From NCBI GenBank assembly GCA_025361765.1, contig JANYJS010000026.1, forward strand, positions 1 through 64,000: a stretch of DNA of 64,000 bases, in the 5' to 3' direction. Origin of the DNA: Bacillota bacterium (GTDB lineage Bacteria; Bacillota; Clostridia; Peptostreptococcales; Anaerovoracaceae). The notes under the pieces are model-generated. The model searched no databases, was not told where the DNA came from, and was given only the letters and a program-made list of their open reading frames with translations. Of the stretch, positions 6,117 to 60,093 are shown one piece after another. The translations under genes and the position numbers were made by a program. Numbering within the stretch: the stretch's first letter is position 1; every line of letters begins with the position of its first letter.

Positions 6117-7343
6117 GGCTTTATTTATGGATTTTTCAAATGCCAACAATCCAGAAAACGCTATGGAAGCTAAAAGACACAACCATCCGACCAATAACCA
6201 CGATTCTTCAATCGTATTCCCAATGAGATACCATCCAATAATCATAGGCCCTATAGCCCTTCCTGTTCCTTGGATGATTTCGTATATCGCTTGAAGCCTT
6301 GCTCTATGAGAAATCGGCGTGCGGTTAGCAATGTAAACGCCTGTATTGGTCGCCGATAATACTTCTCCAATAGTCCATATCACCACAGATAGAACAAATA
6401 TTCCTAAGCTCTTTGTAAAAGCATACATACCAAAACCAATCACGTAGCATACACTGGCCATCACTAGGTTAATTATCGGATTAATACGCTTCGTTAAAGC
6501 AACTATAATAGGTGTAAATAAAACGACGACAATACCATTTACTGACATTAAAATGCCAAAAAGTTTAGCTCCTGTACCGATGCCAAAATCTTGACTTAAT
6601 TGCAGCGGTAAAATAAATCCAGTCTGAGCATAGGCGAAAGATAATATGGCGCATATAATCACAAATGTCAGCAGTATGGGCTTTTTTAGTAAAATAGATA
6701 AGACCGATCCAACCACAGCAGCTTCATCTTTGCGGCCTGAATTTAAAATATTTTCATAATCTTCAGGTGTTGGCTTAGTATCTTTAATAAACATAAGCAC
6801 GAGTCCAATTGCAAGCAGTCCACTGATTGCATCACCCCAGAATATCCATGATGTATAATTTTCAAATAATAAACCCGCGATTAGTGGGCCAATGGCGACG
6901 CCTATATTCATACCAAGATACATAATGGAAAAAGACTCCTGCCGATTGGTTGGATCTGTTAGATCCATAAGCATTGCGGAAGAGCCCGTGGAGGCTATGC
7001 TATTAAAGAAAAACGCTGGAATGAGCAAAATCGGGATTAAGATAGAATTGCCAAGAAAGCCGCAGATAAAAAAAATGATATTAGCCACTAGTGTCGCAAA
7101 GAGATAAGTGTATTTTCGGCTGAAATGATCGGCAAGTTTTCCGCCAATTATAGCCCCGGGAATATAAACAACTGAAGCTAAAAATAAGAAGATCCCAATT
7201 TCACTTTCAGAAAAACCGATTCTAGAGCTAAGAAAAAGAGTCATGAATGGAAAAATAAAAAAACCTAAACTATTGATTGTTCTAGCGATAAATAGCACAT
7301 ATATTTGCTTTGGCAAACCCTTATATTGTGTTATGAATTTCAT
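6108..7343 (-). CDS. MFS transporter, multidrug-efflux-like
   Basis: Predicted 12-helix major facilitator exporter of 411 residues, acting in the cytoplasmic membrane; the substrate is unknown. The family signs are the loop 2-3 motif GGKLADHFSRKYTY (about residues 67-80), a GAIIGG segment before it, and regularly spaced hydrophobic helices throughout. The start has AGAGGAT upstream. It is convergent with tRNA-Leu and divergent from an XRE/S24-like regulator whose start lies 274 nt away, so the regulator may control it. The stop codon falls inside the 46-bp palindrome. Sugar or peptide efflux would also fit the fold. Confidence 0.85.
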   Translation of the reverse strand: MKFITQYKGLPKQIYVLFIARTINSLGFFIFPFMTLFLSSRIGFSESEIGIFLFLASVVYIPGAIIGGKLADHFSRKYTYLFATLVANIIFFICGFLGNSILIPILLIPAFFFNSIASTGSSAMLMDLTDPTNRQESFSIMYLGMNIGVAIGPLIAGLLFENYTSWIFWGDAISGLLAIGLVLMFIKDTKPTPEDYENILNSGRKDEAAVVGSVLSILLKKPILLTFVIICAILSFAYAQTGFILPLQLSQDFGIGTGAKLFGILMSVNGIVVVLFTPIIVALTKRINPIINLVMASVCYVIGFGMYAFTKSLGIFVLSVVIWTIGEVLSATNTGVYIANRTPISHRARLQAIYEIIQGTGRAIGPMIIGWYLIGNTIEESWLLVGWLCLLASIAFSGLLAFEKSINKAHK

Positions 7344-7581: not shown

Positions 7582-7617
7582 GATTTTATTGTTAAAATGA
7601 TTATTCAGGAGGTTAAG

Positions 7618-8376
7618 ATGAGTTATGCTAAAATGCTTGAATCAATTATAAATGCTAGTGAATTATCTTTAAGGCAAATTGCGAAAAGATGTTCCGATAT
7701 AGATGTGAGAATCACTCCCTCTTACATTTCCCAACTAAAAAATGGCAAACTTTCTCCACCATCTGAAGATATTTCACTTGCGTTAGCCAAGGTTTGTGGT
7801 TCTAAAAGTCAATCTCAATTAGTATTTCAAGGATATATGGAAAAAGCGCCTAACCTTGTTAGAGAATACATGCTGGCATCATCAGCTTTAAATAAAATAA
7901 TGCTGGAATCTTTATGCAAAACTTCCGGAGAAGTCACTTCTGAGTTCAGAAAATATATTGAAGATTTAGATGTTCTTTCCGCGCTGGAAATGTCTTCAAG
8001 GTTTGTAGGCACAGCAAGTCAAGTAAAAGGTTATAATTTACTTAAAGAAATATCACTGTCTACGGGCAATGTTGTTAAATCAGATGAGCAAAGCAATATG
8101 GTCAATTTCTTTTTATCTGATTCTTCCATGTCGCCCACAATCCCTGTTCATTCATATGTATACATTCTCCCTACCCGAAAAGAGTTGCTTAAAGACCGTG
8201 ATATTATTGGATCTTATCCACCTAATAGCAAGGTGGTCACTTTGCGCAGAATCTTCACAGCACAAGGAAAGCTGATGCTTATACCCGAAGACAAGTCACA
8301 TCAGCTTTACTTATTCAATACTATTAGTGAGATTAATTATGTGGGTAAAGTAGTGTCCTATAAAGTAGATTTATAG
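7618..8376 (+). CDS. XRE-family transcriptional regulator with S24/LexA-like C-terminal domain
   Basis: 252-residue predicted repressor. Residues 5-65 form a helix-turn-helix of the XRE type (ELSLRQIAKRCSD ... ITPSYISQLKNGKLSPP). The C-terminal half resembles the LexA/S24 fold, with SSMSPTIP at 169-176 in place of the usual GDSMEPT; Ser170 matches the nucleophile. The catalytic lysine expected in a VKRL-like strand is not evident (KVVTLRRI at 205-212), so self-cleavage may be lost and the fold may act in dimerisation or ligand sensing. I start it at 7618 because AGGAGG lies just upstream; an earlier ATG at 7597 precedes that site. It is divergent from the MFS exporter, its likely target. Confidence 0.85.
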   Translation: MSYAKMLESIINASELSLRQIAKRCSDIDVRITPSYISQLKNGKLSPPSEDISLALAKVCGSKSQSQLVFQGYMEKAPNLVREYMLASSALNKIMLESLCKTSGEVTSEFRKYIEDLDVLSALEMSSRFVGTASQVKGYNLLKEISLSTGNVVKSDEQSNMVNFFLSDSSMSPTIPVHSYVYILPTRKELLKDRDIIGSYPPNSKVVTLRRIFTAQGKLMLIPEDKSHQLYLFNTISEINYVGKVVSYKVDL

Positions 8377-8391
8377 CATCACTAGTCAAGT

Positions 8392-9672
8392 TTATTCGTC
8401 AATATATTCGAACTCATACTCCTTGATTTTGACAATATCGCCTTCTTCTATACCCAATGCCTTCATTTGATCTACCGCGCCTTTTAATCTTATGTACTTA
8501 TAAAGATATCTAAGGGAATCAAGATCATTAAAGTTTGTAGAATTAAAAATTTTCTCCAGCTGTTTACCGGAAAGTATATAAATCTTATCTTGTTTTGTCA
8601 CATGAATATCTCTGTAATCTTCATCAGAATCATGTATATCGAAATCAAACATCTCATAAATTTCTTTGGGAGTCTCTCCAATTTCATCCAGCGCAAGCGC
8701 TGCAGCTGCCATCAATTCCTTAATCCCTTGGTTAATTGCTGCCATTATTGGAAATACCCTATATCCCTTAGCTTCCACATAAGTTTTGAATTTTTCGTAT
8801 TTTTCTTGGTCGCTAAGCAGGTCCATTTTATTGGCTGCAACCAGTTGAGGCTTTTTGCTGAGTTCTTTTGAGTAACTGAACATTTCCAGATTGATTTTGT
8901 CAAAGTCCTCTATGGGGTCTCTCTCTTCGGATCCGGCAATATCTACAACATGAATAAGTAGTTTAGTGCGTTCAATATGCTTTAGGAAATCAAGCCCAAG
9001 GCCTGCTCCTTCGTGAGCGCCTTCAATCAATCCAGGTATATCTGCCATGACAAAGCTGCTATCATAAATTTCAACAACACCAAGATTTGGCGTAATAGTT
9101 GTAAAATGATAATTGCCAATTTTGGGCCTAGCGCTGGTTGCAATAGACAATAACGTTGATTTTCCGACATTGGGAAAACCAATAAGGCCTACATCAGCAA
9201 TAAGCTTTAATTCCAGTATGACAAAACGTGATTTTGATATGCCGCCCGCTTCAGCAAAATTCGGTGCCTGGCGTATAGAATTCTTGAAATGCACATTGCC
9301 TTTGCCACCTTTACCACCTTTAACAGCAATGATACTGTCGCCATCATTAACAAGATCTTTCATAACAAGGCCTGTTTCCTCGTCAATAACCACAGTTCCC
9401 ATAGGTACTTTAATGATTAAATCTTCAGCATATTTGCCGAATTGTTTCTTTTTTCTTCCGTCTTCCCCAGGCTGCGCCTCATATTTAGTCTTATATCTAA
9501 AATCCATAAGAGTCCTATAATTGGCATCAGCGACAATTACAACATCCGCACCTTTGCCGCCATCGCCACCATCAGGACCGCCTTCGGGCACATAAGGCTC
9601 CCTGCGAAAGGAAACGCTGCCATCTCCGCCCTTACCTGACTTTATGAATATTCTCGCTCTATCTACAAACAT
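8392..9672 (-). CDS. obgE: GTPase Obg
   Basis: Essential GTPase in 50S ribosome assembly and stress signalling. The 426-residue protein has the glycine-rich Obg fold at the N-terminus (GGDGSVSFRREPYVPEGGPD), the GTPase domain with G1 GFPNVGKS, G3 DIPGLIEGA and G4 NKMD, and the C-terminal OCT domain present in many Firmicutes homologues. The site AAAGGGG precedes the ATG. It follows rpmA in the classical rplU-rpmA-obg cluster, but a strong terminator lies between rpmA and obg, so expression is attenuated relative to the ribosomal proteins or uses read-through. Confidence 0.97.
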   Translation of the reverse strand: MFVDRARIFIKSGKGGDGSVSFRREPYVPEGGPDGGDGGKGADVVIVADANYRTLMDFRYKTKYEAQPGEDGRKKKQFGKYAEDLIIKVPMGTVVIDEETGLVMKDLVNDGDSIIAVKGGKGGKGNVHFKNSIRQAPNFAEAGGISKSRFVILELKLIADVGLIGFPNVGKSTLLSIATSARPKIGNYHFTTITPNLGVVEIYDSSFVMADIPGLIEGAHEGAGLGLDFLKHIERTKLLIHVVDIAGSEERDPIEDFDKINLEMFSYSKELSKKPQLVAANKMDLLSDQEKYEKFKTYVEAKGYRVFPIMAAINQGIKELMAAAALALDEIGETPKEIYEMFDFDIHDSDEDYRDIHVTKQDKIYILSGKQLEKIFNSTNFNDLDSLRYLYKYIRLKGAVDQMKALGIEEGDIVKIKEYEFEYIDE

Positions 9673-52315: not shown

Positions 52316-54655
52316 TTAAACCAATATTTTATCAAGCACTACATCTTTATCTATTACGTCATCTTCCATGTTCATTTCTTCAGGTACAGTAATATCTTCA
52401 TCGTGGGCATCCTCGGGATCAATAGTGTCTTCGCCATCGTCCTTTGATGCGCATTCAGGATCATAGGCACATACCACAGCCTTAAGGTCCTTATCTGCCA
52501 CCGGCTCATCATAGTCAGCAGTTTCTTCAATAACCTTTTCCATAGAAACCTCTGCCTCAACTTCGCCATTTTGGTCAACGTCATAGTCTTCTTCTATAGC
52601 TTCACCCTCTGTTTTGTCATCATATTCGTTGGGAACGTAAGCTTCTTTTTCTGCAATGGCAGCTGCTCTAGATATGGCTGCAGCTTCTCTCTCAGCAGCA
52701 ATTTCTTCCGCTGTAGGAGGCTCAACTGTTTCCTTAATACTTAAACTGATTCTTTTTTTATCTTTGTCAATTTCAAGTATTTTTGCAGAAACCATTTGTC
52801 CAACTTGAATTTCATTGCCAATATTGGTAACGCGCTTATGGGCTATTTCTGAAATATGAACTAGTCCATCTAGACCAGGTTGAAGCTCAATAAATGCGCC
52901 ATATTCTTTTAGTTGAACTACTTTTCCGGAAACGATCGCGCCAACTACATAATTTTCATCAATAGCAGCCCACGGTTCAGGTTTATTTTGTTTTAAGCCA
53001 AGAGAAATTTTTCCCTTTTCAGTGTTCATCGAAAGAATTTTAGTCTGAACTTTTTCTCCTATTTTTAATGCTTCTTGTGGATGTTTGAGTTTTCCCCAAG
53101 ATATTTCAGAGATATGAAGCAGTCCATCAAGTCCACCGATATCAACAAAAGCACCATAATCAGTAAATCTCATTACTGTGCCCTCGACAATATCGCCAAC
53201 ACTTAAGGAATTCCAAATTTCAGCAACTTTTTTGTTTCTCTCTTCATTTAAGAAAGCTTTATGTGAGAATACCGCTTTATTTCTCTTTTGATCCACTCTA
53301 GTAACTCTTACTGGCAGAACTTTTCCTATAAACTCGTCCGCCTTCTCAATAAACCTGTCAGAAAGCTGAGACATAGGTATAAACCCATACACTTCTTTGT
53401 ATACAGCAATAACGCCACCTTTGACTTCTTTAATAACCTTGGCGTTAACAAACGATTTATTTTCAATAGCGTTGGTAATTTCATCCCAATGCTCGTTTAC
53501 TTCAAGTTTTTTCTTTGATAGCAAAATATTTCCATCGCCATCATCAGTTTTTAAAACTTTCGCTTCAATCATGTCTCCAGCTTTAAATAAATCTGTAAGT
53601 TCCTGGCCTGGTTCAAGGCTGATTTCATCTTTTGGTAAAATTCCATCTTTTTTGCAGCCTAGATTCACGACGACTTCACGATTTGTAACCTGAATAATTT
53701 CTCCGTTAATAATTTCATTTCTACCTGGCAATCTTAACGATTTTTCAATCTCTGCCATTAAGCTATGCATTTCGTTTTGTTCTTCTTCCATCTCGTCCAT
53801 TGATTCAGTGATAAATTCACTCATAGTAGCAATAACCTCCTTAATAATACGTTCAGGTGTCGAAGCACCCGTCGCAATTCCTATCTTACTATATTTTTGC
53901 ATATCTTTCAATGGTAAATCTTCTTTTCTTTCTATAAAAAATACACTTTTACAATTATCTTTGGCTATTTCGTAAAGTTTCTTTGTATTGGAGCTCTCTC
54001 TTCCACCAATGATCACCATTGCATCTACAGTCTTTGAAAGGTTTTCGCAGGATTTCTGCCTTATTTCTGTTGCACTGCAAATCGTGTTGTTTTCTATTAA
54101 TTTTATCCCCTTTTTATTTAAAGCTTCACGCACATTCGTTAAGAAATCAGAGGTTATCGTGGTTTGAGCGACAAGACAAACTTTGGGTTCTCTTATGCTA
54201 TCAACATCTTCTAATTTCTGAATAATAAAAGCGGCATTTCCACACCATCCATTTATCCCTATGACCTCAGGGTGGCTTCGATCTCCAACAATAGCTACAG
54301 GAATACGCTCAAGGAAAGCTTCTTTAACTATCCTATGAATTTTTTCAACAAAAGGACATGTGGCATCAACAATCGTAATATCTTTCTGTTTCGCTTCGTG
54401 ATACAAAACCTCAGGTACGCCATGCGACCTGAGGATAACAATCGAATTCGGTTCTGCATCTTTTAGATCAGTTATAATTTCTACGTGTTGTGCAGACAAT
54501 TCATCGATCATATCCTGATTATGAATCAGGGGACCAAAGGTATATATTCTGGATTCATTTCCCGAATTCTTTTGAATGGTATCATCAGTTTTCCTGACAG
54601 CTTCACGAACACCAAAACAGAATCCTGAATTTTCATCAACTATAATTTCCATCAT
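52316..54655 (-). CDS. ispH-rpsA: Fusion of IspH (4-hydroxy-3-methylbut-2-enyl diphosphate reductase) and ribosomal protein S1
   Basis: 779-residue bifunctional fusion known from Clostridia. Residues 1-283 are IspH (LytB), the last step of the MEP isoprenoid pathway, with the cluster cysteines near ENSGFCFG (Cys13), DATCPFVEK and NNTICSATE. Residues about 315-650 hold four S1 RNA-binding repeats (for example FTDYGAFVDIGGLDGLLHIS, and LKEYGAFIELQPGLDGLVHI). The last 115 residues are strongly acidic. It overlaps the rarA stop by one nt, with only a weak ribosome binding site, so coupled translation is likely. Whether the halves work together is unknown. Confidence 0.94.
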   Translation of the reverse strand: MMEIIVDENSGFCFGVREAVRKTDDTIQKNSGNESRIYTFGPLIHNQDMIDELSAQHVEIITDLKDAEPNSIVILRSHGVPEVLYHEAKQKDITIVDATCPFVEKIHRIVKEAFLERIPVAIVGDRSHPEVIGINGWCGNAAFIIQKLEDVDSIREPKVCLVAQTTITSDFLTNVREALNKKGIKLIENNTICSATEIRQKSCENLSKTVDAMVIIGGRESSNTKKLYEIAKDNCKSVFFIERKEDLPLKDMQKYSKIGIATGASTPERIIKEVIATMSEFITESMDEMEEEQNEMHSLMAEIEKSLRLPGRNEIINGEIIQVTNREVVVNLGCKKDGILPKDEISLEPGQELTDLFKAGDMIEAKVLKTDDGDGNILLSKKKLEVNEHWDEITNAIENKSFVNAKVIKEVKGGVIAVYKEVYGFIPMSQLSDRFIEKADEFIGKVLPVRVTRVDQKRNKAVFSHKAFLNEERNKKVAEIWNSLSVGDIVEGTVMRFTDYGAFVDIGGLDGLLHISEISWGKLKHPQEALKIGEKVQTKILSMNTEKGKISLGLKQNKPEPWAAIDENYVVGAIVSGKVVQLKEYGAFIELQPGLDGLVHISEIAHKRVTNIGNEIQVGQMVSAKILEIDKDKKRISLSIKETVEPPTAEEIAAEREAAAISRAAAIAEKEAYVPNEYDDKTEGEAIEEDYDVDQNGEVEAEVSMEKVIEETADYDEPVADKDLKAVVCAYDPECASKDDGEDTIDPEDAHDEDITVPEEMNMEDDVIDKDVVLDKILV

Positions 54656-55926
54656 TATTTTTTTTTGAGGCTCTGTAAATAGCGCTTAAAAGCCCCTTCC
54701 TTTCCATTTTCTGTAGGTTGGTAATAGCTTATATTGGCTTTAAATAAATTATCCGGTAAATATTGCTGTTCAACGTATCCACCATAGGCGTGAGGATATT
54801 TGTAATCCAGTCCTATGCCTCTACTTTTCGCACCAGAATAGTGGGAATCCTTAAGATGTAAAGGTACATCATCAATTTTTTTGGATTTAATGTCCTCAGT
54901 AGCCATTTCAATGGCCATGATTGCAGAATTCGATTTAGGACATGAAGCAAGCAGAAGGGTTGCTTGTGCTAAAATAATCCTTGCTTCTGGAAACCCAACC
55001 ATAAGGGCAGACTGAACGCAGCCAGTCACGATAGAAATAGCGCTAGGATAAGCAAGGCCTATATCTTCACTGGCCATGATCATTAGTCTTCGCCCAATCA
55101 TTTGAATATCGCCTCCACCTTCAATAAGTCTAGCAAGGTAATGGACAGCTGCATCTGGATCACTGCCCCTTATGGATTTTTGCAGTGCAGATAACAGGTT
55201 GAATTTGTCTTCACTTTTATTGTAAAAATTCGTTTGACGCTGCATAGCTTCAGAAACGACGTCGCTGTTAAGTCTTCTGCCAATCGTCATGTTATCAGCA
55301 ATAAACCCGAGCGTATCTAAAGCGATACGCGCGTCTCCATTGCTCAATTCCGCAATAAGCGAAAGGGCTTCTTCTTCATAGTCAAGTTGACACTTGGCCA
55401 CGCCCCGTTCACTGTTTCCAAGGGCGTTTTTCAGTATTCTAACTAACGCGCCATTGTCTAATCGTTTAAATTCGTAAATCGAGCGTACCCTGCTCAGTAT
55501 CGCGTCATTAACAGCAAAATAGGGGTTTTCTGTTGTGCTGCCAATAAATCTTAGGACTCCTTCTTCCAATGCTTTTAATAAGGAATCCTGCTGCAGTTTG
55601 TTCCATCTATGAAACTCATCAATATAAATATAAGTTTTTGCCTTCTGAAGGCCAAAGAACTTTAATTTTGCCCGATCAATTATTTCTTTAAGCTCCTTGA
55701 TACCCGTTGTAGAGGCATTAATCTCATAAAAATCAGCATCCATCTCTTTAGCTATGATTCTTGCAAGCGTTGTTTTCCCTGTTCCCGAAGGACCATAAAA
55801 GATGGCGGATTCAAATGTTTTATTCAAAATAGCATGGTACAAAAGCGCATCTTTATACATAAAATGCTGCTGTCCAAAAAATTCATCCAGGTTTTCCGGT
55901 CTCATTCTTGTCGAAAGAGGAATCAT
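54655..55926 (-). CDS. rarA: Replication-associated recombination protein A (RarA/MgsA)
   Basis: AAA+ ATPase related to clamp-loader subunits, acting at stalled forks. The 423-residue protein opens PLSTRMRPENLDEFFGQQH and has Walker A GPSGTGKTT near residue 47, a Walker B IYIDEFHRWNKLQQD, and sensor 1 GSTTENPYF. The DEFH reading instead of the common DEIH is a mild variation. The start overlaps the upstream membrane-protein stop by 4 nt, and its stop overlaps the ispH start. Confidence 0.96.
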   Translation of the reverse strand: MIPLSTRMRPENLDEFFGQQHFMYKDALLYHAILNKTFESAIFYGPSGTGKTTLARIIAKEMDADFYEINASTTGIKELKEIIDRAKLKFFGLQKAKTYIYIDEFHRWNKLQQDSLLKALEEGVLRFIGSTTENPYFAVNDAILSRVRSIYEFKRLDNGALVRILKNALGNSERGVAKCQLDYEEEALSLIAELSNGDARIALDTLGFIADNMTIGRRLNSDVVSEAMQRQTNFYNKSEDKFNLLSALQKSIRGSDPDAAVHYLARLIEGGGDIQMIGRRLMIMASEDIGLAYPSAISIVTGCVQSALMVGFPEARIILAQATLLLASCPKSNSAIMAIEMATEDIKSKKIDDVPLHLKDSHYSGAKSRGIGLDYKYPHAYGGYVEQQYLPDNLFKANISYYQPTENGKEGAFKRYLQSLKKK

Positions 55927-56444
55927 TTACTCACCTTAATTCTTTTTAAATAAAAACCGATGACCAAAGTATATAAATAGTCGTAGGCAAAAAATGCTAT
56001 TTCAAAAGCAATGATAAGAATCACAAAAGGGAAATCCGGTAAATTAATGCTCCCAAGGATCAGCTCCCGAAAGAAAATTATCATAATACCCAAAGAAAAA
56101 TTGAAAAAAATCATTTTCAATATGAGTTCAATGGGCAGTTTTCGCAATAGTTCAATATGGTACTTCACGACGCCATAAATGCCAAAAAAGAGAATATAGG
56201 GAATAACAAATACTTTATCTGGCACAAAAATCAGCGCAAAAATGCATGAGGCGATATAAAAAAGCCACCCTGCCTTTGGTCCGGCCTCCATAATCACGAA
56301 GGCTACATAAAAGGAACTTAACATGTAGAGAGTAAAATTAGCGACAGGCAGAACTGTTTGTATATATAGAGTTGTAACTGAAATAGCAAGCAGCATTGCG
56401 CTGATTGCAATGCCTCTGGTTCTTACTTTAGAATTATTTCCCAT
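55923..56444 (-). CDS. Predicted multi-pass membrane protein
   Basis: 173-residue protein with about five hydrophobic helices covering most of its length, a short basic N-terminus (MGNNSKVRTRGI) and a basic C-terminus (YLKRIKVSK). The sequence resembles small ECF-type S components or similar integral proteins, but I see no diagnostic motif and do not assign a substrate. It sits between the DnaJ-like gene and rarA in one operon, with a 4-nt overlap to rarA. Confidence 0.7.
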   Translation of the reverse strand: MGNNSKVRTRGIAISAMLLAISVTTLYIQTVLPVANFTLYMLSSFYVAFVIMEAGPKAGWLFYIASCIFALIFVPDKVFVIPYILFFGIYGVVKYHIELLRKLPIELILKMIFFNFSLGIMIIFFRELILGSINLPDFPFVILIIAFEIAFFAYDYLYTLVIGFYLKRIKVSK

Positions 56445-56477
56445 TCATCCTCCAGGGTTATTCAAATTTTTATACGC

Positions 56478-57092
56478 TTAAAAACAATTGCACAACAAGT
56501 CCGTGCAAATGAAGCACTGAAACATTCGGCACAAGTCGTCGTTATTTGAACCGTATCCTCTTCCATTTGCCGCGCTTCTAAATCCGCCGCCGTTACCAGC
56601 CATTGTGTTCAGAGCGTTTCTATATTCATAATTTCCTGGATCCATAGCATTAGCTTTCTGCAAATTAACTAGTGCATCATCATACCAGCCCTTTCTTTGA
56701 GATAGAACACCTCTTAAAAAGAACCATTCGGCATTTCTCGTTCTGCTTTTATTCAGCAAGGCTTCTGCGCCTTCTGCATTGCCTCTTTCAATTGCGGATC
56801 TGATTTCATAAAATTCTGGGCTTGGGCTCTGTCCCCTAGTACCGGACTGATTGCCATAACTATTGCCGTAGCCACTATTCGAATTAGCAGTTCCATTATA
56901 TGAGTTGCCGTTTTTTGTCAAGGTTTCATAAGCTTCATTAACTTCTCTCAGCTTTTCTTCGGCCAAGTCATAAAGTGGATTGTTCTGATATTTGTCGGGA
57001 TGATACTTCTTAACCTGTTCTCGATAGGCTGCTTTAATTTCGGCCTCGGTTGCCCCCTGTTTTATGCCAAGTACTTCATATGGATTCTCCAT
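56478..57092 (-). CDS. J-domain protein with TPR-like repeat and Cys-rich tail
   Basis: 204-residue protein. Residues 1-62 are a J domain with the HPD motif (VKKYHPDKYQNN), so it should stimulate an Hsp70/DnaK partner. A Gly/Asn/Ser-rich linker (about 62-95) leads to a TPR-like part (about 95-165). The C-terminus, CRMFQCFICTDLLCNCF, has five cysteines in the last 17 residues, compatible with a membrane anchor or metal site; comparable Firmicutes J proteins have a Cys-rich end too. It overlaps the start of the DUF5685-like gene's 3' end by 17 nt, so the two are translationally coupled. Confidence 0.85.
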   Translation of the reverse strand: MENPYEVLGIKQGATEAEIKAAYREQVKKYHPDKYQNNPLYDLAEEKLREVNEAYETLTKNGNSYNGTANSNSGYGNSYGNQSGTRGQSPSPEFYEIRSAIERGNAEGAEALLNKSRTRNAEWFFLRGVLSQRKGWYDDALVNLQKANAMDPGNYEYRNALNTMAGNGGGFRSAANGRGYGSNNDDLCRMFQCFICTDLLCNCF

Positions 57093-57975
57093 TTTGTTTG
57101 CTACTCCCTTTCGCTAATACTTCCTCTGTTTTTTTTAATAAGCCTAAATAAATAATATTCTCTATTAATGCTTTATTTTTTTTAATTGGCAATAAATCAT
57201 AGGCTTTTGATAATTCTTCAAGGTAACTCAGCAGATTAAATTCAATTCGTTCTCTAATCCTTGCTCTAAACTCATAGAGCGTCTCTTCCTTCTCTGAGTT
57301 AAAATCAAAATGAATGAGAATAGGGTTAAATGACTTATCTTTTAAGTTTATTTCCATGTCATCAAAGGCATCTATAATATAAATCCATTTTCCAATATGA
57401 TAGCCTATTCTGCCTAGAATCATTTCAGTCCCTGTTTTTAAGCCGTCTGTACCATCCCAAGTGAATATGGTTTCCATAATCTTGGCAAAAGGTTCTGCTG
57501 CCTGGTCTAAGGATGCTGTTTTTGTGTTTTCTATATCTGAAAGTTCTTTTAGTCTGCTTGCGATTATGCCACTTTTTTCTGGATACCTTTCAGCTAATCT
57601 ATTGAATTGTTTGTTAGCTAAAAATGCTGCAGTGCCAGCCAATATATTGCGATCATCTTTATAGTCATCTATTAATTTATAAAAGCTCAAAATGAGATGC
57701 ATGTCGGAGGCATAATCTACCGACTCATTCTCATATAGAATGGGTTTTTTTCTAATCGGATGAATTGGGCATCGCTTTATCCGGATGATCTCCCTACCAT
57801 CCTGAAGGCCAGCTAAAATAAGCGCTAAAAATACGGAATCATAGCTTAAGGTTAATCTAGGTAATTGACCATATCTTTTGCCAATAGACTTGCAGATTCC
57901 GCAATAATATCCGCTATAAAGCTCATATTCTCTTATTTTAAGTTCCGGTTTATCCGGAGCTATATATCCTCGCAT
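57076..57975 (-). CDS. DUF5685-like family protein
   Basis: 299-residue protein of a family I recognise by the N-terminus (MRGYIAPDKPELKIREYELY), the motif YYCGICKSIGKRYG (Cys25, Cys28 region) and RCPIHPIRKKP, which put two cysteine/histidine groups near the start. It is mostly helical and of unknown function; known members lie beside a J-domain gene, as here. The C-terminal part is charged and ends with EEVLAKGSSKQNGES. It starts 14 nt after the small membrane protein with GGAGA, and its 3' end overlaps the J-domain gene. Confidence 0.8.
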   Translation of the reverse strand: MRGYIAPDKPELKIREYELYSGYYCGICKSIGKRYGQLPRLTLSYDSVFLALILAGLQDGREIIRIKRCPIHPIRKKPILYENESVDYASDMHLILSFYKLIDDYKDDRNILAGTAAFLANKQFNRLAERYPEKSGIIASRLKELSDIENTKTASLDQAAEPFAKIMETIFTWDGTDGLKTGTEMILGRIGYHIGKWIYIIDAFDDMEINLKDKSFNPILIHFDFNSEKEETLYEFRARIRERIEFNLLSYLEELSKAYDLLPIKKNKALIENIIYLGLLKKTEEVLAKGSSKQNGESI

Positions 57976-57989
57976 AAGGTCTCCGAAGT

Positions 57990-58250
57990 CTATTTGAATT
58001 GCTTTTTAAAATGATTAATTACAATATATGTTACGCTCATATCAATAACATAGCATCCACCCAAAATGACATTAAAAACTTTTTGTTTTTTCGTCATATG
58101 ATTGCAAACATCACTCGGACACAGTGATTTTTCGTCTTCAGGTATTTTTTTACCTAAAAGCGCATTTCCAGCGACAGCCAGTCCTACATATAGTCCCGTA
58201 AAAGTCGCCGCATGCTTCGGGTAAGTCCAGTTTTCTATAAAATGAGACAT
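57990..58250 (-). CDS. Small two-helix membrane protein, function unknown
   Basis: 86-residue protein with two hydrophobic segments (about 15-33 and 58-78) and a polar loop with two cysteines (LCPSDVCNHM). It has the very good ribosome binding site GGGAGGT and is the first gene of the DUF5685/J-domain/membrane protein operon. I know no family for it. The CxxxxC pair in the loop could bind a metal or form a disulfide; that is only inferred. Confidence 0.75.
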   Translation of the reverse strand: MSHFIENWTYPKHAATFTGLYVGLAVAGNALLGKKIPEDEKSLCPSDVCNHMTKKQKVFNVILGGCYVIDMSVTYIVINHFKKQFK

Positions 58251-58404: not shown

Positions 58405-59283
58405 TTAAATTTCTACACTCTCAAGGATCCGTTTCACATAGGTTGGAAGTGCAAAACAACCTTTATGCAAATCTGTATTATAATAGTTCGTTTTAAGCCC
58501 AAGCTTCGCCCATGCCTCCGGTTTAAAGTCTGCAATTGGATCATATTTCTTTGAAGCAAAGCCAAAGTACCAGTATCCGGATGCATATGTTGGTGTATTA
58601 AATCCAAACACCTTTGCTATTGGAAAGGTTTTTCTAATTTTTGCATGGGCTTTTTTCATTTCTACAATGTCACCATCAAAGAAAGCGCCCTCATGCTGAT
58701 TGATGAGAATGCCATCTTCGCTTAGGCATCTATAACAATCGTTATAGAATTCAACCGAGAAAAGTCCTTCGCCAGGGCCTTCAGGGTCAGTTGAGTCAAC
58801 AAGAATTAAATCGTAAAATCCTGCTTCTGCTTCCTTAACAAACTGTAGCCCATCCCGAAATATGAGATTTATTCTAGGATCCTTATCAAGAATATCTGCA
58901 GTTGACGGCATATATTTTTGACAAACGCGAACAACCAGTTCATCAATCTCAACCATATCTATTTGCTCAATTGTCTTGTACCTGGAAACTTCTCTTGCTG
59001 TTCCTCCGTCGCCACCGCCAATAATTAGTACCCTCCTGATTTTTGGGTTGACCGCTAAGGCAGGATGACAAATCATATCATGATACACAAATTCGTCCTT
59101 TTCCGTGACCTGAGTATAACCGTCCAAAACAAGAAATACGCCAAAGGTTTCATTTTTCATCACTTGAACCATTTGAAATGGTGATTGCTCCACATGCAAA
59201 ATCTCGCTGACCTTGAGCGATAATTTAACATCGTCATCCATATAGTATTCTGAAAACCAAAAATCATGATTTTTTTGCAACAT
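58405..59283 (-). CDS. speE: Spermidine synthase
   Basis: Transfers the aminopropyl group of decarboxylated SAM to putrescine. The 292-residue protein has the SAM-type nucleotide region VLIIGGGDGGTAREVSRY (residues 86-103) and the catalytic DSTDPEGPGEGLFS. AGGAGG precedes the ATG. speD lies 15 nt upstream, so the two enzymes that make and use decarboxylated SAM share a transcript. No putrescine-forming gene (speA or speB) is adjacent, so putrescine must come from elsewhere. Confidence 0.97.
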   Translation of the reverse strand: MLQKNHDFWFSEYYMDDDVKLSLKVSEILHVEQSPFQMVQVMKNETFGVFLVLDGYTQVTEKDEFVYHDMICHPALAVNPKIRRVLIIGGGDGGTAREVSRYKTIEQIDMVEIDELVVRVCQKYMPSTADILDKDPRINLIFRDGLQFVKEAEAGFYDLILVDSTDPEGPGEGLFSVEFYNDCYRCLSEDGILINQHEGAFFDGDIVEMKKAHAKIRKTFPIAKVFGFNTPTYASGYWYFGFASKKYDPIADFKPEAWAKLGLKTNYYNTDLHKGCFALPTYVKRILESVEI

Positions 59284-59298
59284 TTTTATTTTCCTCCT

Positions 59299-60093
59299 TT
59301 ATAATGGCAAATTAACGCCATAAAATATTTCATCAACTTCTTTTTTTAATTTGGAAGTGATTCTATGAACCTCCGGAACAGAAATATCCGATTCCGAGAA
59401 GTTAAAGAAATAATTATCCAAAACAAAGTCTTTTAGCTTGCATTTCGTGTGAAATATATTTTCCTGATAAACGTTGACGTCTATCATTTGATACTTATTC
59501 CGATTGTCCTCATCAATATAATTCTGGATTGACGTGAGGTCATGATCGATAAAAAGCTTCTGGCCCGTTATATCCCTTGTAAAACCTCGTATTCTGTAGT
59601 CAAGCGTCATCATATCTGCTTCAAAGCTTTCTATAAGATAGTTAAGCGCATTCAGCGGTGATATTTCTCCACAGGTTGACACATCAATATCCGCTCTAAA
59701 AGTGCACACGCCGCCATCAGGGTGATATTCAGGATAGGTATGCACAGTGATATGACTTTTATCAAGATGCATCGCTACAGATGGATTGCTTGGATAACTT
59801 TGCTCAGACACCTTTGAAATTGGAGGTTTTGAGGCCTCGCAAATCAAAATCGTTACACTGGCCCCTTGAGGGTCATAATCCTGAACCGCGATATTCAGTA
59901 TATTTGCGCCAATAATTTCGCATACCTTATTTAGAATGCTTGTCAGCTTTTCCGCATTATACTGCTCATCGATATATTCAATATATGCTTTTCGATCTGC
60001 CACAGATTTAGTATAGCAGATATCATACATATTAAATGACAATGTTTTAGTTAAGTTATTAAAACCGTGCAATTTTACTTTTTTATTTTCCAA
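59299..60093 (-). CDS. speD: S-adenosylmethionine decarboxylase proenzyme (E. coli-type SpeD)
   Basis: Forms decarboxylated SAM for spermidine. At 264 residues it is the long, E. coli-like class, not the short 120-130-residue class of many Firmicutes. The self-cleavage serine that becomes the pyruvoyl group is in [14 protein letters not shown] (Lys-Ser bond), and the catalytic Cys is in [17 protein letters not shown] start (60091-60093) follows GGGGG; the product opens [11 protein letters not shown] promoter is seen at 60141-60168. speE follows. Confidence 0.93.

Follow-up and report, generated by a model that had tools for sequence, protein, structure and literature searches.

A DUF5685 protein with a predicted isoprenoid-synthase fold is paired across Clostridia with a cysteine-tailed TPR/J-domain protein and may act in cysteine prenylation

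Several enzymes of the isoprenoid-synthase superfamily act on peptides, including ComQ (on ComX), PalQ, and the P domain of ChrPC (PMC13290415), and the genes for ComQ and its peptide, ComX, are neighbors (PMC4008528). According to a 2017 review, no case of cysteine isoprenylation had been detected in prokaryotes (PMC5331326), and a paper from 2021 makes the case that bacteria may have prenyltransferases that act on proteins (PMC8669142). Among titles and the opening parts of abstracts in the open literature, no report of a bacterial cysteine prenyltransferase was found. Here we describe a locus in a 64,000-nucleotide (nt) stretch of DNA from a Bacillota bacterium of the Anaerovoracaceae (assembly GCA_025361765.1, contig JANYJS010000026.1, positions 1 to 64,000; this whole stretch is called the window), where a DUF5685 protein (PF18937) is encoded beside a J-domain/TPR protein with a cysteine-rich C-terminal tail. 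Judged by its predicted structure, the DUF5685 protein very probably has the class I isoprenoid-synthase fold. As a tentative and best single account, we propose that this protein may prenylate the tail cysteines of its neighbor. DUF5685 resembles ComQ in its predicted fold, and it is likewise encoded beside its presumed partner. Among 5.39 million open papers, DUF5685 is mentioned by name in one, among the domains of C. difficile R20291.

The genes are transcribed from the minus strand in the order small protein, DUF5685, J/TPR protein, membrane protein, rarA, and a lytB-rpsA-like fusion. A first-pass annotation of the sequence had described the first four as an unstudied module with recurring cysteines. 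Its spacings agree with the coordinates: from the small protein to rarA there are, in turn, a 14 nt gap, a 17 nt overlap, a 33 nt gap, and a 4 nt overlap. The cysteine motifs are also present, as CPSDVC in the small protein, YCGIC and RCPIHP in DUF5685, and five cysteines in the tail of the J protein (CRMFQCFICTDLLCNCF). The central features are as follows.

57076..57975, minus strand: DUF5685 protein, 299 amino acids (aa); PF18937 at 304 bits (cut-off 26.7); proposed prenyltransferase.
57892..57903, minus strand: C25xxC28 of DUF5685, present in 77/77 sequences; part of a putative three-cysteine metal site.
57769..57771, minus strand: C69 of DUF5685, present in 77/77 sequences, in a beta-hairpin (63-81) predicted by the model.
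57655..57669, minus strand: first Asp-rich motif of DUF5685, D103-D104-Y-K-D107 (DDxxD), placed by conservation and hhalign register.
57358..57372, minus strand: second motif of DUF5685, D202-A-F-D-D206 (DAxxD), preceded by G195 and Y199, placed in the same way.
56478..57092, minus strand: J-domain/TPR protein with a C-terminal cysteine string, 204 aa; PF00226 at 65.6 bits, TPR matches present below the Pfam cut-off; proposed substrate.
56913..57092, minus strand: J domain (residues 3-60, PF00226 match) with HPD, which is kept in 75/77 named partners.
56481..56540, minus strand: cysteine-rich C-terminal tail DDLCRMFQCFICTDLLCNCF (residues 185-204); cysteines are enriched here in relatives.
55923..56444, minus strand: membrane protein with six helices, 173 aa; model with a mean predicted local distance difference test (pLDDT) score of 93.3 and a fold like that of energy-coupling factor (ECF) transporter S components; proposed membrane partner.

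The assignment of DUF5685 to the isoprenoid-synthase superfamily comes from structure prediction. An AlphaFold2 model made from 77 sequences has a mean pLDDT of 94.6. When this model was compared with solved structures by a DALI-like method, the top match was 4jyx_B (Z 19.1, 251 aligned residues, 3.0 Å) and the match at rank 50 still had Z 15.9; for helical models without clear relatives, the tool quotes a typical best Z of 14. Judged by their titles, the best 50 entries are without exception prenyl synthases or MoeN5, with 9a4c ('ACP-HEPS2') counted as a prenyl synthase. A Foldseek search is also led by octaprenyl diphosphate synthase, MoeN5, and other prenyl synthases, with E values near 0.01. 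The link to isoprenoids could not have been seen by a reader of the sequence alone. Sequence-based searches of solved structures with the DUF5685 protein and with profile A1 gave no meaningful relative, the best matches being designed helical proteins at E 0.0025.

The positions of the most conserved residues agree with this fold. An hhalign comparison with 31 prenyl synthases places D103, D104, and D107 on the DDxxD motif and G195, D202, and D206 on the second Asp-rich motif of these enzymes. Residue conservation was counted in an alignment of 77 DUF5685 sequences (A3), which holds the window protein and 76 of 79 open reading frames (ORFs) from loci in named genomes; L068, L077, and L100 were omitted because they are shortened, and L095 yielded no ORF (L with a number denotes a locus, G with a number a genome). 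The residues D103, D107, D202, D206, A203, G195, Y199, N217, E149, D157, C25, C28, and C69 are present in 77/77 sequences, and His72 is present in 64/77. The recurrence of cysteines pointed out in the first-pass annotation exceeds chance: C25, C28, and C69 are invariant, and the partner's cysteines are packed into its tail (see below). All seven of C25, C28, C69, D103, D107, D202, and D206 are also kept in eight divergent members that were checked.

The second motif is present in altered form, since its middle position, the second Asp, is Ala203 in 77/77 sequences, and in the first motif the second Asp is not constant (D104 in 56/77). These two features and the absence of the Arg pair found after the first motif of ordinary synthases would suit a DUF5685 protein that is a non-catalytic scaffold, keeps the tail protein at the membrane, and uses its Asp motifs structurally. 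However, C25, C28, C69, D103, D202, and D206 are invariant and D107 is nearly so in a 41-sequence alignment (A1) whose most divergent members share as little as 21% identity with the window protein. Such retention of the aspartates would be unusual for a scaffold, and we consider this explanation quite improbable.

Although DUF5685 resembles the trans-isoprenyl diphosphate synthases (PF00348) in its predicted fold and in the register of both Asp-rich motifs, it differs from them in several respects. PF00348 is absent from the matches of the window DUF5685 protein and from the families listed (25 of 35) for the 41 members. The genome of the window encodes two ordinary prenyl synthases; in both, Arg-Arg follows the first motif and a Gln precedes the second. 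DUF5685 has no conserved Arg at 111-115 and no Gln before the second motif (Tyr199 in 77/77), and its model has the beta-hairpin with C69. We therefore reject the identification of DUF5685 as an ordinary prenyl synthase. The absence of both Arg-Arg and Gln makes a chain-elongating activity unlikely, and the two ordinary prenyl synthases in the genome mean that DUF5685 would be an extra member. No PF00494 (squalene/phytoene synthase) match was found for the window's DUF5685 protein or elsewhere in the window's genome, and no such synthase is among the best 50 fold matches; the profile comparison was run against PF00348-type synthases only. DUF5685 also departs from the ComQ and PalQ type, which modifies Trp and has Gln before the second motif: it has Tyr199 (77/77), three invariant cysteines, and a cysteine-rich partner. 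Its second motif is DAxxD, compared with NDxxx in ComQ (PMC5331326).

DUF5685 is closely paired with its neighbor. The family was found in 30/61 relatives (the window's own genome counted) and in 33 of 299 genomes sampled across the phylum; beyond the phylum, a control hit showed a member in Thermotoga maritima. For gene order, we used the 80 best loci among 594 confirmed matches in named genomes. By title these 80 belong to Clostridia or unplaced Bacillota, among them Caloranaerobacter azorensis (L088), Anaerovorax odorimutans (L059), and Clostridium tyrobutyricum (L115), and as the best matches they lean toward close relatives. A gene for a J/TPR protein adjoins DUF5685 in 77/80 of them, lying downstream in 76 and upstream in one (L138). 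Two of the three remaining loci are at contig ends (L072 and L095), and at L077 a search of 16.8 kb gave no partner. As judged from longest ORFs, 63 of the 76 downstream partner genes overlap DUF5685, most commonly by 4 nt (15 cases) or 17 nt (14 cases); some of the longer overlaps will come from over-extended starts. The membrane protein has a relative in 50/80 loci, and in 49 of these it follows the partner gene at a distance of at most 400 nt. No other neighbor cluster occurs in more than 18/80. The module is real and recurrent across Clostridia, and the description of a conserved, little-studied, membrane-linked unit in which cysteines matter holds. The first-pass annotation had also reasoned that its reading would fail if DUF5685 mostly lacked J-domain partners, and this check did not refute it: the J/TPR gene is adjacent in nearly all of the 80 loci, and a tailed partner is adjacent in 27 of the 33 DUF5685 genomes of the phylum sample.

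The cysteines of the partner protein are concentrated at its C terminus. Among 77 named partners (E<1e-15, L138 included and the window excluded), 609 of 634 cysteines fall within the C-terminal 40 residues (3,080 positions over all the proteins), and 25 fall in the remaining 13,471. Each of the 77 proteins has 5 to 17 cysteines in this segment. The window protein ends in CNCF, 38/77 partners end in CC, and 10 end in CI; a C-terminal CaaX, CC, or CxC box could give such ends, as could any cysteine string. A common form of the tail, found in 22 sequences, is CxxCxxLWCADCCCECMGGDLISCC, and these 22 sequences gave no match in Pfam. The alignment of partners (A4) holds the window protein and 76 of 78 matches, since L138 and a second, weak match at L121 were removed by a filter of E<1e-30. 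At L138 (Candidatus Epulonipiscium viviparus, 7598-8900) the tail protein encoded upstream of DUF5685 has 129 aa, 14 cysteines, and no HPD. An extreme tail is that of the L075 partner (6449-7087), which has 19 cysteines, 17 of them in the last 45 residues, and also lacks HPD.

The tail, rather than the J domain, is the more nearly constant element of the partner, and in this the core of the module differs from that of the first-pass annotation. In the 33 DUF5685 genomes of the phylum sample, 27 have a tailed partner adjacent, one has a fusion, and five show no tail. The fusion, in G210, joins the cysteine-rich tail to DUF5685 itself (18 cysteines in 376 aa). Five of the 27 adjacent tailed partners have no J domain: in G127, G108, G147, G182, and G339 the protein beside DUF5685 is 116-152 aa long and keeps the tail. 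In G050 and G039 the DUF5685 gene stands alone, and a J-less tail protein is encoded elsewhere in the genome, with a gene for a membrane-protein relative after it (E 3.5e-35 and 2.5e-37). Seven genomes from four families thus keep the tail without a J domain, and the J domain was rejected as the fixed partner. Its absence was established by Pfam scan for three proteins, including those of G108 and G339, and by length and profile coverage for the other four; the three scanned proteins have only weak TPR matches under the cut-off.

Profile searches of the same 299 genomes give a similar result. A profile of the whole partner found 20 near-full-length matches at E <= 1e-22, all among the 33 DUF5685 genomes. 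The G127 match covers the TPR and tail part (80-209). All further matches are confined to the J-domain end, the pattern shown by ordinary DnaJ proteins. A profile of the tail gave 13 matches, of which 12 lie at a DUF5685 locus with E 2e-4 or better. The thirteenth (G142, E 0.0067) is an ORF opposite a longer frame and was taken as chance. In a second set of 56 loci with a DUF5685 ORF, 49 have a cysteine-tailed ORF downstream, L052 has a fusion, L004 and L007 have an unlinked tail gene, and L054-L057 have none. The 49 is an automatic count from which L057 was removed, where the call was a spurious 67-aa frame of unlike sequence, and to which L025, whose partner ORF has an over-extended start, was added; L027 and L028 are cut at contig ends and lie outside the 56.

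The best single explanation that we can offer for these patterns is, tentatively, prenylation. Prenyl transfer to a thiol is suggested by three features taken together: a likely prenyl-diphosphate site, the invariant cysteines of DUF5685, and the cysteine-packed tail of the partner. DUF5685 would bind a prenyl diphosphate via Mg2+ at the DDxxD and DAxxD motifs and would transfer the prenyl group to one or more tail cysteines of the TPR/J protein. A zinc ion might be bound by its residues C25, C28, and C69 and activate the acceptor thiol. Thiol-alkylating enzymes, protein farnesyltransferase included, hold the thiolate on zinc (PMC539065). Once lipidated, the tail might tether the TPR module to the membrane, together with the DnaK-recruiting J domain that most species have, and the protein would sit there next to the ECF-S-like membrane protein. 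A more elaborate form of this proposal is doubtful: that DUF5685 represents a cysteine prenyltransferase with an isoprenoid-synthase fold and a three-cysteine zinc site, that S-prenylation was invented here separately from eukaryotic farnesyltransferase and yields membrane-anchored TPR/J co-chaperones bearing a cysteine string, and that the ECF-S-like protein serves as a receptor for the prenyl lipid or at the membrane.

Two eukaryotic J proteins are similar to the proposed substrate. The cysteine-string protein DNAJC5 combines a J domain with a dense cysteine string, as the module's J protein does, but it is palmitoylated, its string is not at the very C terminus, and it is not known to have a TPR. 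Following this likeness, another lipid, such as an acyl chain, might be put on the tail by a different enzyme, with DUF5685 having a separate role. This idea offers no reason for DUF5685 to be paired with the tail, and we regard it as very improbable. The second protein, Ydj1/DNAJA1, is modified by the eukaryotic farnesyltransferase, which has another fold, at one site, and is not known to have a cysteine string. Its prenylated C-terminal site aids its reach to membranes, which is similar to the role proposed for the tail, and in yeast the farnesylation of Ydj1 helps it to reach the endoplasmic reticulum (PMC10939075).

Several observations weigh against prenylation of the tail by DUF5685. The best Foldseek E value for the model is 0.0098, with none <= 0.001, and the hhalign alignment to prenyl synthases is weak (local P 0.018, probability 2.6%; no alignment in global mode). 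No Pfam cross-match between DUF5685 and isoprenoid synthases was found for the window protein or in the families listed for the 41 members. The isoprenoid-synthase-like peptide prenyltransferases are known to modify Trp only, and they have in common a Gln close to the second motif (PMC13290415), where DUF5685 has Tyr199. The tail cysteines, five to 17 in number, exceed what prenylation needs. The tail profile covers a single class of tail, matching at 12 of the 33 DUF5685 genomes and missing the window's own, and tails of other clades vary in the number and spacing of cysteines. Finally, no tail was detected in the flanks or by profile in G114, G217, G285, and G309, which represent two divergent families (DUF5685 at 116-143 bits), and the DUF5685 proteins of these genomes keep C25, C28, C69, D103, D107, D202, and D206. 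A possible exception is a 121-aa ORF with five cysteines near its end that lies ~4 kb from DUF5685 in G217. In G195, where no tail was found at the DUF5685 locus, the DUF5685 gene has an internal stop.

A further point against tail prenylation is that the 22 Clostridium-type tails have fixed spacing with conserved D, E, and GGD, which fits a metal-binding or folded unit as well as it fits a recognition motif. The tail might accordingly be a metal site (zinc, Fe-S, or metallothionein-like) or a disulfide switch, with the DUF5685 cysteines loading or sensing metal and the enzyme fold reused. The three invariant cysteines and usual His72 of DUF5685 would suit this function, as would the retention of the cysteines in the divergent proteins for which no tail was found. 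Yet the invariance of D103, D107, D202, and D206 would be left unexplained, and the differing cysteine number and spacing in other clades also count against this function. This alternative is the main rival and in our estimation somewhat less likely than prenylation. It comes close to the metal- or redox-dependent chaperone complex suggested by the first-pass annotation, whereas the predicted fold and the Asp-rich motifs point first to isoprenoid chemistry.

The third protein of the unit gave no match in Pfam or NCBIfam up to E 1. Its model is closest to the S component RibU (3p5n_A: Z 10.8, 146 aligned residues, root-mean-square deviation 3.6), followed by TmRibU (Z 10.6-9.1), ThiT (7.2), and a further S component (6.9). 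S components occupy ranks 1-4 and 7-9 of the 201 chains compared, and the best other row has Z 8.0. The top Z of 10.8 is under the 13 quoted for helical bundles, and the Foldseek E value is 0.19. From this six-helix model we conclude with moderate confidence that the membrane protein resembles the S components of ECF transporters, from which it differs in having no Pfam family. DUF2232 was matched weakly in 5/49 relatives; the alignment of this protein (A5) leaves out L082 and L092 of the 50 matches.

A comparable arrangement exists elsewhere in the window's genome. At L166:1294-2800 (G000:C113), a PF00348 polyprenyl synthase adjoins a PF07456 protein (heptaprenyl diphosphate synthase component I), and this PF07456 gene also weakly matches an ECF S-component family. 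Because this pair exists beside that of the module, a protein with a prenyl-synthase fold has an S-component-like neighbor twice in the genome. A direct hhalign comparison of the membrane protein with the PF07456 protein gave P 0.0047 and a probability of 7.5%, over 67 columns only. This second pair, which also suits the prenylation account, would together with the ECF-S-like fold, the retained Asp-rich motifs, and the presence of MoeN5 among the fold matches fit the alternative that DUF5685 makes a small isoprenoid, either a terpene or a prenylated metabolite, that the tail and ECF-S-like proteins bind, chaperone, or transport, with no protein being modified. This scheme does not explain the pairing with the tail or the fusion in G210, and the lack of any further neighbor in more than 18/80 loci also counts against it. 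We judge it unlikely.

If DUF5685 does prenylate the tail, then the family is placed in a known superfamily, and bacteria gain an analogue of the prenylated or cysteine-string J proteins. The module names a candidate enzyme, a candidate substrate, and candidate residues for the question of bacterial protein prenylation. Even if prenylation is wrong, DUF5685 and the cysteine tail are a closely paired and unexplained system across Clostridia.

Other genes at the locus are less regularly associated with DUF5685. Those in the window are listed below.

57990..58250, minus strand: small hydrophobic protein, 86 aa; no match in Pfam or NCBIfam; lineage-specific accessory.
54655..55926, minus strand: rarA, directly after the membrane-protein gene.
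52316-54655, minus strand: 779-aa ORF in which an IspH/LytB-like part is joined to S1-like repeats (lytB/ispH-rpsA-like fusion); named by eye.
58405-60093, minus strand: spermidine-synthase-like and AdoMet-decarboxylase-like ORFs, immediately upstream of the module; assigned by eye from their translations.

Of the four genes grouped by the first-pass annotation, the small protein falls outside the core. It was rejected as a core component because it occurs in 3/80 loci (and in 5/58 of the second locus set, the window's own counted), and its CxxxxC motif is found in only two of five sequences read, again with the window's own. It is an accessory of one lineage. The rarA gene, to which the module had been said to be coupled, was likewise rejected as a member; its cluster lies within the fetched flanks in 4/80 loci, and the gene is a bystander. 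The lytB-rpsA cluster, which like rarA was named by eye, lies two genes downstream of the module in the window and occurs in 5/80 loci. IspH/LytB acts in isoprenoid precursor synthesis, and with so few occurrences its closeness to DUF5685 is probably incidental. On the other side of DUF5685, a gene of one cluster encoding 177-184 aa, possibly CYTH-like, precedes it at eight loci (L096, L097, L107, L113, L115, L116, L124, and L130). In seven of these it lies within 6 nt of DUF5685 or overlaps it, and in L130 it is 75 nt away.

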